Part shown: positions 48,799 to 54,210 of the stretch, piece by piece | Layout: every line of letters begins with the position of its first letter | Position numbering within the stretch: the first letter of the stretch is position 1 | Assembly: GCA_019112785.1 (NCBI GenBank) | Contig: DXIQ01000063.1 | Location: forward strand, 1 to 64,000 | Source: Candidatus Blautia stercorigallinarum | GTDB taxonomy: Bacteria > Bacillota > Clostridia > Lachnospirales > Lachnospiraceae | Reading direction: 5' to 3' | Length of the DNA stretch: 64,000 bases | Notes under the pieces: model-generated | Databases searched by the model: none | The model's input: only the letters and a program-made list of their open reading frames with translations | Told to the model about the DNA's origin: nothing | Made by a program: the position numbers and the translations under genes

Positions 48799-50760
48799 TT
48801 GGAAAATTATACTAAGTACAGGTTAAAAAACAATGATGAACTGGCATCTGTATTGGCCGGTAAAGACAATCTGTTCATCATTGCCTGTAACAAGTGTTTC
48901 AAGGAATTTGAAACAATCGATGAACCGGAATGCGCCGAGTTTGAAAAATTCGCCGCAGAGCAGGGGAAGACAGTTACAGGTACTGCAAGAGTTGATTTTT
49001 TATGCAACAAAATCCAGACAGAGAAAAAACTCCAGGATATGATCCCGGAAGGTACAGAAAATGTTTTCGTGATCTCCTGCGGACTGGGAATCCAGACTGT
49101 GGCAGAGCTGGCGGGGAAACCCGTATATGCGGCCAGCAATTCCCTGAATTACAGAGGCTATCACGGCATGGCGCTCACCCAGAAAAAGTGTGACGCATGC
49201 GCCCAGTGCTATTTGAACATAACCGGCGGCGTCTGTCCCATCGTTGACTGTTCCAAGAGTCTGGTCAACGGTCAGTGCGGCGGCGCGAAGAACGGAAAAT
49301 GCGAAGTAGACAGCAGTAAAGACTGCGCATGGGAAAAAATCTATCAGAGACTGGAAAAACAGGGACGTCTTGAAGAGTTCCTCCATCAACCGGTCCAGCT
49401 GAGAGATTACTCCAAGATCAATTTCAAGTTTGTAAATGATTACGTGAAATCCATCAGGGCAGAACGTCTGGAAGGCTATTACGGCGGCGTTCATCCTTTA
49501 GAGCGCAAAGAGTATACAGAACATATGGCTCTGAAGAGATTCCCTGAACCGGAAGAAGTTGTTATCCCTCTGTCCATGCATGCAGGGGCTCCGGCCAATC
49601 CTGTAGTGCAGGTGGGTGATACAGTTAAAGTGGGACAGAAGATCGGTGAGGCTGCGGCCTTTATCAGCAGCCCGGTACACTCCAGTGTCAGCGGTACGGT
49701 AACAGCCATTGAAAACCGTGGACATGCCACCAGAGGAGAATGTCTTTCTGTGGTGATCAAATCTGACGGAAAGAATACTCTCCATGAATCTGTTAAGCCT
49801 CACAAAGGCCTGGAAGAGCTGACTCCTGATGAGATCGTGGAAATCGTAAAAGAGGCCGGTATCGTAGGTATGGGCGGCGCCGGTTTCCCCACATCTGTAA
49901 AATTAAAACCTGCCAAGCCGGTAGATACCATCCTTCTTAACGGCTGCGAGTGCGAGCCCCTTCTGACTGCAGACCACCGGGTGCTCCTGGAGTTTGCAGA
50001 TGATGTGATCTATGGACTTAAGGCGATCCTTAAGGCAGTAGGCGCAGAAAAAGGCGTTATTGTCATCGAGGACAATAAGCCTGACGCTATCCAGCTTATG
50101 ACGGAGAAAACTGCAGATCTTGAAAATATAGAAGTTGTAACAGCTAAGACGAAATACCCCCAGGGTGCTGAGAAGATGCTGATCAAACGTGTGACCGGAA
50201 GAAAAGTTCCAAGCGGCGGCCTTCCTGCAGATGTAGGCTGCATCGTCAGCAACATCAGCACAACCAAGGCTATTGCCGACGCCATTTTGACCGGTATGCC
50301 GTTGATCGAGCGTGTTGTGACCGTAACCGGTGAGAGAGTGAAAAATCCGGGGAACTTTATCGTAAAGATCGGTACCAATACAAAAGATCTTATCGATTAC
50401 TGCGGCGGAGTGACAGGAGATGACGTTACTATTAAGGCCGGCGGACCTATGATGGGCTTCCTTCTTACAGATACAAATGTACCTATCATGAAAGGCTCCA
50501 ACGGAATTATTGCCGTGGATACAGATCATACTGTAGAACAGCCTTGTATCAAATGCGGCCGGTGTATGGATGTGTGTCCTATGGAACTGTCTCCACTGTA
50601 TTTCGCAAAATTTGCGGATGAGGAGAACTGGCAGGGCATGAAAGAGAAAAATGTTATGGACTGTATCGAGTGCAGATGCTGTGAGTATATCTGTTCCTCC
50701 AAGATTCCGTTAGTGACGAAGATCAAAGCCGGAAAAAATGCAGTAAGGGGGATGAAGTGA
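48799..50760 (+). CDS. MetV-like (methylene-THF reductase C-terminal) domain fused to RnfC-like protein (RnfC2 type)
   Basis: N-terminal CNKCF...CDACAQCYLNITGGVCPIVDCSKSLVNGQCGGAKNGKCEVDS (MetV); C-terminal GMGGAGFPTSVKLKP, CIKCGRCMDVCP, CIECRCCEYIC (RnfC); TTG start. Confidence 0.88.
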   Translation: MENYTKYRLKNNDELASVLAGKDNLFIIACNKCFKEFETIDEPECAEFEKFAAEQGKTVTGTARVDFLCNKIQTEKKLQDMIPEGTENVFVISCGLGIQTVAELAGKPVYAASNSLNYRGYHGMALTQKKCDACAQCYLNITGGVCPIVDCSKSLVNGQCGGAKNGKCEVDSSKDCAWEKIYQRLEKQGRLEEFLHQPVQLRDYSKINFKFVNDYVKSIRAERLEGYYGGVHPLERKEYTEHMALKRFPEPEEVVIPLSMHAGAPANPVVQVGDTVKVGQKIGEAAAFISSPVHSSVSGTVTAIENRGHATRGECLSVVIKSDGKNTLHESVKPHKGLEELTPDEIVEIVKEAGIVGMGGAGFPTSVKLKPAKPVDTILLNGCECEPLLTADHRVLLEFADDVIYGLKAILKAVGAEKGVIVIEDNKPDAIQLMTEKTADLENIEVVTAKTKYPQGAEKMLIKRVTGRKVPSGGLPADVGCIVSNISTTKAIADAILTGMPLIERVVTVTGERVKNPGNFIVKIGTNTKDLIDYCGGVTGDDVTIKAGGPMMGFLLTDTNVPIMKGSNGIIAVDTDHTVEQPCIKCGRCMDVCPMELSPLYFAKFADEENWQGMKEKNVMDCIECRCCEYICSSKIPLVTKIKAGKNAVRGMK

Positions 50761-50761
50761 T

Positions 50762-51379
50762 ATGTTGATTACCGAATTAAAACCCAGAGAAACCATCGAA
50801 GCCCTGGCAGAAGGGAAAAAAGTCTTTATCATCAACTGCCATGGCTGTAAAGAAGTTTATTTTCCGGTAAAAGAAGCGGAAGAACTTCAGAAAGCCTGGG
50901 AAGCCCAAGGAAAAGTGACCGGGATCCTCACAACAGATTACATATGCAATCAGGAAAATATGGAGCTCCGTCTCCAGAAACATATGGATGAGATCCAGGC
51001 TGCCGACATGGTCCTTGTATTTTCCTGCGGCGTAGGCGTTCAGACCATTGCCGCTTATCTGGAAGAGAAAAAGGTATGCGCTGCCTGCGATACATGTCCT
51101 CTGCCGGGGTTCCAGGGTGTAACTCCTCTGGAGTATAAATGCGATCAGTGCGGAGAGTGTTATCTGAACCTCACCGGTGGTATCTGCCCCATCACTGCCT
51201 GCTCCAAGAGTCTGGTCAACGGTCAGTGCGGCGGCGCCAAAAACGGCAGATGCGAAGTAGACAGCGACATGGAATGCGGCTGGGAGCGTATTTACAGACG
51301 CCTTGAGCAGATCGGACGTCTGGATGTACTGAAATGTCCTACCCAGGTGCGGAACTTTGCGACAGATGATGAAGTTTAA
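50762..51379 (+). CDS. MetV-like methylene-THF reductase C-terminal domain protein
   Basis: CDQCGECYLNLTGGICPITACSKSLVNGQCGGAKNGRCEVDSDMECGWERIYRRLEQIGRLDVL. Confidence 0.88.
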   Translation: MLITELKPRETIEALAEGKKVFIINCHGCKEVYFPVKEAEELQKAWEAQGKVTGILTTDYICNQENMELRLQKHMDEIQAADMVLVFSCGVGVQTIAAYLEEKKVCAACDTCPLPGFQGVTPLEYKCDQCGECYLNLTGGICPITACSKSLVNGQCGGAKNGRCEVDSDMECGWERIYRRLEQIGRLDVLKCPTQVRNFATDDEV

Positions 51380-51421
51380 AATGGAAAATGCAAAAATTTT
51401 AAGAATTAGGAGTAATGTATC

Positions 51422-52300
51422 ATGAAGATTACTGAGTTATTTGAACGTGGCGAATTTGTAGTATCTGCGGAGGTTGGTCCCCCAAAAGGATTTCATGTAG
51501 AGCATTTGCTGGAAGAAGCAAAAACCTATTTAAGCGGTATTACCGCAGTAAATGTAACCGATAATCAGTCTTCTGTTATGCGCCTGGGCTCTCTGGCTAT
51601 GTGTAAGGCTCTGAAGGATGAAGGACTGACTCCTATCTATCAGCTGACCTGCCGTGACAGAAACCGTATCGCTCTCCAGTCCGATCTTTTAAGTGCAGCT
51701 ATGTTCGGGATCGAGAACCTGCTGCTCCTTACAGGGGACCATACAAAACTGGGCGATCATCCACAGGCGAAACCGGTATTCGACCTGGATTCTGTTTCTC
51801 TGATCCACACAGTGAAAAAACTGGAAGAAGGCGTGGACCTGGGCGGAAACGAGCTGATCGGAGAACCTCCGAAATTCGCTAAAGGAGCGGTAGTATCTCC
51901 CTGCAGCGATTCCGTTGACGCACAGCTGGCAAAGATGGAGAGAAAAGTAATGGCAGGAGCCGATTACTTCCAGACCCAGGCTGTTTTTGAGCCGGAAAAA
52001 TTCATCAAATTTATGGAAAAGGCAAAACAGTTCGGAAAACCTGTACAGGTTGGTATCATCATTCCAAAATCAGCAGGAATGTGCAAGTTCATGAATAACA
52101 ATGTAGCCGGTGTTCATGTTCCTGACGAGATGATCGAAGAGCTGAAGAAGGATAAAGAAAAGACCAAAGCCGGAATCACCGGTGTAGAGATCGCAGCCCG
52201 CATCATCAAAGAATGTAAACCTTACTGCCAGGGCGTACATATCATGGCTCTTGGCTGGGAGTCCAAAGTACCGGATCTTCTGAAGGCTGCCGGGATCTGA
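51422..52300 (+). CDS. metF: Methylenetetrahydrofolate reductase
   Basis: FVVSAEVGPPKGFHVEHLLEEA, LLLLTGDHTKLGDHPQAKPVFDLDSVSLI, MAGADYFQTQAVF. Confidence 0.93.
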   Translation: MKITELFERGEFVVSAEVGPPKGFHVEHLLEEAKTYLSGITAVNVTDNQSSVMRLGSLAMCKALKDEGLTPIYQLTCRDRNRIALQSDLLSAAMFGIENLLLLTGDHTKLGDHPQAKPVFDLDSVSLIHTVKKLEEGVDLGGNELIGEPPKFAKGAVVSPCSDSVDAQLAKMERKVMAGADYFQTQAVFEPEKFIKFMEKAKQFGKPVQVGIIIPKSAGMCKFMNNNVAGVHVPDEMIEELKKDKEKTKAGITGVEIAARIIKECKPYCQGVHIMALGWESKVPDLLKAAGI

Positions 52301-52531: not shown

Positions 52532-52619
52532 TTTGTCGTAAAAAACGGGAATAAAAAGAAAAGAGGAAGATATATATGACGGAATATCGGCATAATTGGA
52601 TCTGCCAGGTGGTGACAGG

Positions 52620-53120
52620 ATGAATACTTTCTGGATTTTGCTGGAACAGATCGGACTTTTTGTTATTTATATTATAATAGGCGCTCTTCTTATTAAAACA
52701 AAAGTTTTTACAGAGATCACGATTGAATCCATTTCCAGATTCGTATTGAAACTGGCGCTTCCGGTTATGATCTTTGTGAATATCGCAGGAGGAGTGGACA
52801 GGAGAACTCTTTTTCAGTCTGCGGGAATACTGATATATACCTGCATTTTTTATATTTTTACTTTCCTGATCGGAAAAGGATTAAGCCGCCTGTTTCCCGT
52901 GATTTTTTACCTGCTGCTGGGATTTTTCCAGACACCGGAAGAAATACGTCTTACGATGTCTCTTCTGGGAGCAATGCCGGCGATGTCTTCTGTTGTAATG
53001 ATGGCAAAGGCTTCAGGATCTGAGGGAGATTATGCCATGGGCGGAGTATTTGTCACCACTCTCTGTTCCATCGTCACAATTCCGGCTGTATGCTGGATCC
53101 TCCAGAATCTCCTGTCTTAA
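52620..53120 (+). pseudogene. AEC (auxin efflux carrier) family transporter, internally deleted
   Basis: N-terminal and C-terminal AEC segments (RLTMSLLGAMPAMSSVVMMAKASGSEGDYAMGGVFVTTLCSIVTIPAVCWIL) joined in frame; 166 aa rather than about 300. Confidence 0.6.
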
Positions 53121-53176: not shown

Positions 53177-53205
53177 TTGACATTTACAGGACAGTATGTT
53201 AGATT
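53177..53205 (+). promoter_or_regulatory. Sigma-A-type promoter for riboswitch operon
   Basis: TTGACA(53177)-17-TAGATT(53200). Confidence 0.55.
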
Positions 53206-53220
53206 TTATTCAAGCAATGG

Positions 53221-53350
53221 AAAGGGAGTAGCTGAACATCCCAAAAGGATGGTTTTGTAATCGTCAACCGGTGCCGAGAGGCACCCGTAGCAAATGAGAT
53301 AGCAAGACTTTTATTGTGGCAGATGTCATGATAGAAGTCTTTTTCTTTTA
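53221..53350 (+). promoter_or_regulatory. yybP-ykoY (Mn2+) riboswitch: aptamer 53221-53312 and terminator expression platform 53304-53350
   Basis: AAAGGGAGTAGC ... ATCGTCAACC ... GGTGCCGAGAGGCACC ... ATAGCAAGACTTT matches the class core; AAGACTT re-pairs with AAGTCTT before a T-rich run. Confidence 0.85.
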
Positions 53351-53414
53351 TCATAAAAACCAAATACTCCGGACATCTGTCACAGAAACTTGCAGATGAG
53401 AAGGAGCGAGAAAA

Positions 53415-53837
53415 ATGACAGAAAGACTGGTAAAACAAGAATTAAGACAGGCAGAGAGGGCAGGAGAGAGAGCTTTGGAAAGCCTCTATACCCTCAGAGA
53501 CACTTTAAACAGCGCAAAGAACTGGGGACTTCTGGATCTTTTCGGGGGAGGAGCTTTTTCAGGATTTATGAAGCACTCCAAGATGGAAACAGCCGCAGGG
53601 CTGATCGACCGGGCAAAGAAAGATCTGGAAAGTTTTCAAAAGGAACTGAAAGACGTTCCCGTGTCCCTGGATCTGAGAATGGAGATCGGAAGTTTCCTTT
53701 CCTTTGCGGATTTTTTCTTTGATGATCCGGTTTCCGATTATCTGGTATACTCCAGGATCCAGAATACCCGGGAGGACGTGGAAGATGGGATCCAGCTGGT
53801 AGAAGAACTTTTGAAAAAACTCAGAAAACAGTGGTAG
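53415..53837 (+). CDS. Uncharacterised protein (140 aa), riboswitch-associated
   Basis: Good RBS (GAAGGAG); charged helical N-terminus, LLDLFGGGAFSGFMKHSKMETAAGLIDRAKKDLESFQKEL. Confidence 0.75.
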   Translation: MTERLVKQELRQAERAGERALESLYTLRDTLNSAKNWGLLDLFGGGAFSGFMKHSKMETAAGLIDRAKKDLESFQKELKDVPVSLDLRMEIGSFLSFADFFFDDPVSDYLVYSRIQNTREDVEDGIQLVEELLKKLRKQW

Positions 53838-53850
53838 AGGAGGAATAAGA

Positions 53851-54210
53851 ATGGGTTGTCTTGGAAATTTATTATGGTTTATTTTCGGCGGCGCTTTAAG
53901 CGGCCTGAGCTGGTGCCTGGCAGGATGTCTCTGGTGCATTACCATTATCGGAATTCCTGTGGGAATGCAGTGCTTTAAGTTTGCGGGGCTCAGTTTCTTT
54001 CCCTTTGGCAAAGAAGTACAGTACGGCGGCGGGGCAGGATCCTTTCTGCTGAACATCCTTTGGCTGATCCTTTCAGGCCTGCCTCTGGCAATAGAACATT
54101 GTGTGCTGGGAATCCTGATGTGTATAACGATCATCGGAATCCCCTTCGGCCTCCAGCATTTTAAACTGGCAAAACTGGCCCTGATGCCTTTTGGAGCGGA
54201 AGTTTATTAA
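53851..54210 (+). CDS. YccF domain (DUF307) membrane protein
   Basis: Two repeats NLLWFIFGGALSGLSWCLAGCLWCITIIGIPVGMQCFKFAGLSFFPFGKEV / NILWLILSGLPLAIEHCVLGILMCITIIGIPFGLQHFKLAKLALMPFGAEV. Confidence 0.9.
   Translation: MGCLGNLLWFIFGGALSGLSWCLAGCLWCITIIGIPVGMQCFKFAGLSFFPFGKEVQYGGGAGSFLLNILWLILSGLPLAIEHCVLGILMCITIIGIPFGLQHFKLAKLALMPFGAEVY

Follow-up and report, generated by a model that had tools for sequence, protein, structure and literature searches.

A P4-less leader related to the yybP-ykoY (Mn2+) riboswitch class precedes genes for a 140-aa protein and YccF in Lachnospiraceae

Two small genes in the window (the whole 64,000-nt stretch from Candidatus Blautia stercorigallinarum analyzed here) are preceded by a leader that the original prediction read as a yybP-ykoY Mn2+ riboswitch. 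One gene encodes an unnamed 140-aa protein and the other YccF. The locus therefore raises the question of whether the leader belongs to this riboswitch class, and what its ligand would imply for the two proteins. The promoter, aptamer motifs, terminator, and both open reading frames were all confirmed where they had been predicted. The features are listed below; R1 is a covariance model described in the next section.

53177..53205, + strand: promoter of the sigma-A type, TTGACA-17 nt-TAGATT (from sequence; boxes recur in other genera)
53219..53312, + strand: aptamer, assigned to a P4-less yybP-ykoY (Mn2+) riboswitch (R1 match, 108.6 bits; covariation; R1 also finds RF00080 loci)
53221-53224/53308-53311, + strand: switch (closing) helix AAAG/CUUU, four pairs
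53231-53232/53302-53303, + strand: inner GC pairs
53237-53241/53247-53251, + strand: P2
53254-53258/53290-53294, + strand: P3
53266, + strand: A in L3 (GUCAAC), putative equivalent of the Mn2+-contacting adenosine (L3 alignment with residues in PMC6754395)
53270-53275/53280-53285, + strand: L3 hairpin
53304..53349, + strand: intrinsic terminator, 17-bp stem 53304-53320/53325-53341 plus U-rich tail (fold, −18.9 kcal/mol)
53315..53384, + strand: second long-range helix, 13 bp, 53315-53327 with 53372-53384 (covariation in most 140-aa/YccF leaders)
53415..53837, + strand: gene for the 140-aa protein, a predicted four-helix bundle (ribosome site AAGGAG at ~53401-53406)
53851..54210, + strand: yccF, small membrane protein (profile match; PF03733 twice, NF008740)

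As read from the sequence, the promoter consists of TTGACA at 53177-53182, a 17-nt spacer, and TAGATT at 53200-53205, and transcription is expected to start near 53212. In other genera the boxes lie at an equal distance from the leader, and the DNA upstream of them is unrelated. The order of promoter, aptamer, and terminator is likewise repeated 5' of homologues of the 140-aa gene in other genera; the block was found in Blautia, Roseburia, Diplocloster, and another Clostridia genome, with stems that are changed yet complementary. The fold of the window leader lies 4.6 standard deviations below shuffled sequences; with this recurrence and the covariation described below, it argues against a chance resemblance. 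In a locus of the same genus (L013, 1480-1720), the leader has decayed, with GGGAGTAGC lost, and the 140-aa gene is apparently broken; thus, the locus can be lost. Positions 52596-53120 of the window hold an AEC-type transporter gene that is ~420 bases shorter, in frame, than its near-identical relatives in L001 and L024. Consecutive genes at 48799-52300 encode an RnfC-like protein whose N-terminal part is MetV-like, a MetV-like protein, and MetF, a row that we take to resemble the MetVF-RnfC2 methylene-THF reductase of acetogens.

Relationship of the leader to the yybP-ykoY class

The aptamer carries the hallmark motifs AAAGGGAGTAGC (53221-53232), ATCGTCAAC (53260-53268), and AGCAAGACTTT (53301-53311). 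Its L1 is GGGAGUAG, its L3 is AUCGUCAAC and includes A53266, and the conserved L1 and L3 loops of the class are present as GGGAGUAGC at 53224-53232 and GUCAAC, respectively. The P4 arm of the solved four-way-junction structures is missing, and its place is taken by UGAGAUA (~7 nt).

The covariance search that the original prediction had named as its own check failed: RF00080 gave no match at the gathering score or at E ≤ 10, whether the window, the 600-base region (at E ≤ 10), or the full assembly was searched. Other weak Rfam matches at E ≤ 10 (mir-4536, sau-19, and ctRNA) were rejected as chance hairpin matches. Leaders were gathered both from relatives in Blautia and from loci with homologues of the 140-aa gene, and 13 related ones, none of which is an RF00080 match, were used to build R1. 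Three leaders found by short DNA match (L015, L016, and L018) precede a different gene with a P-type ATPase-like start. R1 scored the window leader at 108.6 bits. Across 200 Lachnospiraceae genomes it identified 97 leaders, distributed over 70 genomes with up to four in each; a class-wide search gave matches in 38 of 292 genomes. The genome under study has two copies, the one in the window and a second at C31:7215-7311 (L080), before a P-type ATPase gene.

When applied to loci derived from RF00080 across the phylum, R1 matched 29 of 30 at the same position (E values from 4e-8 to 0.6). Most of these matches are weak, yet the positions coincide; L175 and L177, among these 30 loci, exceed the Rfam cut-off. 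Because R1 was built without any RF00080 match, this test is independent. RF00080 itself scored above its cut-off in 0 of 150 Lachnospiraceae genomes, in a family where R1 detects the element in 70 of 200, which makes RF00080 a poor means of refuting class membership. The limiting factor is likely the Rfam model rather than the element, since the short form falls outside what that model covers.

Conservation among the 97 aligned leaders points in the same direction. Standard pairs fill 93.7% of pair cells, and double-sided changes occur in 20 of the 22 pairs. Covariation scored 0.58, versus 0.18 for shuffled and <0.09 for slid versions; fitting the alignment to the structure favors this score, but pair counts from a MAFFT alignment agree. 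The unpaired loops are also kept: 87 leaders have GGGAGUAGC or GGGAGUAAC and the other 10 have GGGAGUAGU, while L3 is mostly CGUCA or CGACA. The P4 position measures 6 to 10 nt in 95 of the 97.

These data bear on whether the resemblance to yybP-ykoY could instead be convergent, the leader being no riboswitch but an attenuator or a leader that binds a protein. The missing RF00080 match and the shortness of the hallmark motifs would fit such an origin, but R1 and RF00080 choose the same places in independent genomes, unpaired loop sequences are conserved, the stems covary, and the gene sets match. We regard convergence as very improbable. Instead, the homology between R1 and RF00080 loci, the covariation, and the presence of MntP, P-type ATPases, Na/Ca exchangers, and CNNM proteins among the targets place the leader in the yybP-ykoY (Mn2+) class, as a compact member that lacks P4. 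The class assignment made in the original prediction is thus upheld by the homology to RF00080 loci, the Mn-type targets, and the conserved equivalent of A41 (see below), and the short form prevails among Lachnospiraceae leaders of this class.

The window leader shares with RF00080 members the L1 sequence, an L3 of CGUCA with the Mn-contacting A, GCAAGAC, an AAAG/CUUU switch helix that overlaps the terminator, and MntP and P-type ATPases as targets. In contrast, the short form has the P4 arm reduced to ~7 nt and a shorter switch helix, is invisible to RF00080, and includes 140-aa/YccF, OadB, and SPFH among its targets. P4 may not be strictly defining for the class, since at least one RF00080 locus (L180) also seems to lack it. 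A further likeness is to the consensus of RF02617 (SSRC10, "Streptococcus sRNA 10"), which has GGGAGuagC, CGUCaaUAC, AGCgaGaC, no P4, and a terminator but is filed as an sRNA. RF02617 did not match the window leader and matched L099, L115, L102, and L106 weakly, below the gathering score. From its sequence, RF02617 is probably a misfiled P4-less leader of the yybP-ykoY type.

Target genes and the 140-aa/YccF pair

The first genes behind the 97 leaders, with representatives checked by Pfam, encode P-type ATPases (33), CaCA exchangers (16), the 140-aa family (16), OadB (9), SPFH proteins (8), flotillin (3), CNNM (3), MntP (2), an NptA-type (Na/Pi) protein (1), and YccF alone (1), with 5 others or unread. 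MntP is described in Pfam as a "putative manganese efflux pump"; hence, an assignment of Mn2+ as the ligand fits. OadB, SPFH, and YccF were unexpected as targets of a Mn-type leader. OadB, the beta subunit of a Na+-pumping decarboxylase (PF03977), lies directly behind leaders L096, L103, L105, L124, L129, L133, L141, L143, and L146. SPFH/prohibitin-like and flotillin genes lie behind L090, L100, L112, L116, L117, L126, L140, L151, L160, L164, and L168.

YccF was readily recognized, with two PF03733 domains (138 bits, E = 1e-40) and a score of 151 bits against NF008740 (cut-off, 123). AF2 modeled it as four helices in two repeats, with confidence in only one of five models, and a structure search returned no fold match. 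The 140-aa protein gave no match over the curated cut-offs in Pfam, NCBIfam, or PHROG, and its profile found nothing below E 0.6 among PDB sequences. It is predicted to form a four-helix bundle (pLDDT 80), and searches of solved and viral structures with this model yielded only generic helical bundles at E > 0.01. In these family and structure searches, neither protein displayed a known metal-binding motif. Twelve residues are invariant in an alignment of 21 family sequences (A5): A34, D41, G44, G45, K53, E77, D80, F97, D99, F101, D103, and V111; the five acidic ones could form a putative metal site. A longer form of ~300 to 340 residues carries the 140-aa domain at its C-terminal end; a second copy in the genome under study (C92) is of this longer form.

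The 140-aa family is present in 62 of 200 Lachnospiraceae genomes, and a leader was found at 16 of its 30 best loci, in one case with a gene for a small membrane protein lying between the leader and the 140-aa gene. A YccF survey found 44 genes in 42 of 200 Lachnospiraceae genomes; combined with the R1 leader positions, it showed a leader at about 12 of the 44 and none at about 32. In this family, then, the majority of YccF genes stand without a leader, as do many of the 140-aa genes. Nor are the two genes a fixed unit: one leader (L154 in G163) is followed by YccF with no 140-aa gene, and 140-aa genes lack an adjacent YccF behind L148, L155, L157, and L162. Nonetheless, because a leader precedes the 140-aa gene in 16 of 97 cases, YccF alone in one, and about 12 of 44 YccF genes, the pairing is conserved rather than accidental. 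The linkage of both genes to the riboswitch, repeated in many genera, proved to be genuine.

Switching mechanism and ligand

The terminator stem is followed by TTTTTCTTTT, and nucleotides 53308-53311 (CUUU), the 3' strand of the switch helix, also lie inside the terminator 5' arm. This shared strand substantiates both the predicted re-pairing with the aptamer 3' strand and a transcription-terminating expression platform. Secondary-structure energy was −47.3 with the terminator, versus −33.0 with the switch helix forced. Since energies alone favor the terminator, readthrough should need tertiary docking stabilized by the ligand. In Lactococcus-type control as described for the L. lactis yybP-ykoY riboswitch of yoaB, Mn2+ stabilizes P1.1 and prevents termination (PMC11087558). 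The window leader shares this logic of switch helix versus terminator; the yoaB riboswitch differs in having a four-way junction (solved structure) and another downstream gene. Manganese-dependent activation of a P-type ATPase is described for the Streptococcus mgtA riboswitch (Martin 2019, in PMC11477304); going by that description, the second copy in the genome under study (L080), also before a P-type ATPase gene, is similar.

In L. lactis, L3 reads UCA41AUUC, and N7 of A41 contacts Mn2+; the equivalent residue in X. oryzae is A48 (PMC6754395). Alignment with this L3 places the A41 equivalent at 53266. An A occupies this position in 95 of the 97 leaders, including that of the window. It is replaced by U in L161 (G167) and L162 (G064), both of which precede 140-aa genes, and in a third species, found by pattern search (L294 in G779); all three share CGUCUUCUU in L3. 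Judged by sequence, these leaders may represent a natural change of metal specificity.

Whether the short form as a whole might prefer another metal (e.g., Mg2+, Cd2+, or a general divalent or pH signal), such that 140-aa/YccF would answer a signal other than Mn2+, was weighed against these observations. OadB, SPFH, flotillin, and YccF are non-classical Mn genes, A41 has become U in leaders of three species, yybP-type variants with altered specificity have been called likely (PMC7266159), and a yybP leader from a streptococcus reportedly shows a pH effect (PMC4448216). However, the A41 equivalent is kept in the window leader and in 95 of 97 overall, and MntP and P-type ATPases are preceded by the same short form. 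We consider a different metal unlikely and infer that Mn2+ is the probable ligand of the window leader.

Because the putative Mn-contacting adenosine, A53266, is kept and the terminator competes with the switch helix, a Mn2+ ON switch is the most likely mode of control by analogy with known members. In the proposed mechanism, the terminator stem would capture CUUU 53308-53311 when Mn2+ is absent, and transcription would halt near 53349. Mn2+ would dock L1 onto L3 at A53266, the docked loops would hold the AAAG/CUUU helix so that the terminator could not start, and the resulting antitermination would allow transcription of the 140-aa gene and yccF. The products would then most likely respond to excess Mn2+, as an export/tolerance module or in membrane protection. 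We have good confidence in this overall reading, namely, a compact, P4-less Mn2+ riboswitch acting as an ON switch by antitermination, with the 140-aa protein and YccF likely in the response to excess Mn2+. Weighing against it are the missing RF00080 match, the absent P4 arm, the failure to find a metal-binding motif or structural match for either protein, the numerous YccF and 140-aa genes without a leader, and the suspected existence of yybP-type RNAs specific for other metals (PMC7266159).

The second long-range helix pairs the upper part of the terminator 5' arm with a stretch past the U-tract and is mutually exclusive with the upper terminator stem. It reached P ≤ 0.02 against shuffles in 10 of 17 140-aa/YccF leaders, compared to 9 of the 74 remaining leaders (Fisher P = 1e-4). 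Because the cut-off was picked after the pattern had been seen, and because the leaders are relatives of one another, the P values should be read as indicative. Covariation is illustrated by GUGGCAGAUGUC/GACAUCUGUCAC and GCGGCAGAU/AUCUGCUGC. When the helix was imposed along with the other parts of the leader, the fold was near-equal in energy (−61.7 versus −62.4). A role as a co-transcriptional antiterminator was rejected, since the terminator is transcribed before the 3' arm of the helix. Because the helix forms only after readthrough, we suppose that it acts on the finished message, settling it away from the terminator fold or stabilizing its 5' end.

Possible roles of the two proteins

If the riboswitch is genuine, the 140-aa protein and YccF might protect or remodel a membrane disturbed by Mn2+ rather than serve as Mn homeostasis factors, a possibility that concerns only the protein roles and is compatible with the Mn2+ riboswitch explanation of the RNA. 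SPFH, flotillin, and CNNM genes share the leader type, YccF is a membrane protein, the 140-aa gene adjoins genes for small hydrophobic proteins in the L134, L157, and L215 operons, and Mn stress in B. subtilis engages YqgP-FtsH membrane quality control (PMC7231995). On the other hand, a role in export fits equally. We rate membrane protection as a serious possibility, at somewhat below even chances. More tentative, and rather doubtful at present, is the broader proposal that in gut Lachnospiraceae the two proteins form a system for Mn2+ export or for Mn stress at the membrane, within a riboswitch group whose A41-to-U members have been retuned to another divalent ion. No functional link between YccF and Mn was found in the literature searched, which lay outside the target lists of Dambach 2015 and Martin 2019.

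Riboswitches indicate a likely signal for genes of obscure function, and the leader linkage offers such a testable signal for YccF and for an unnamed helical family. It suggests that the 140-aa gene and YccF belong to the bacterial manganese response. The A41-to-U members could directly test the changed metal specificity of yybP-type RNAs that was left open in PMC7266159. Altogether, the Rfam model overlooks almost the entire Mn riboswitch regulon of the Lachnospiraceae, a major gut family.
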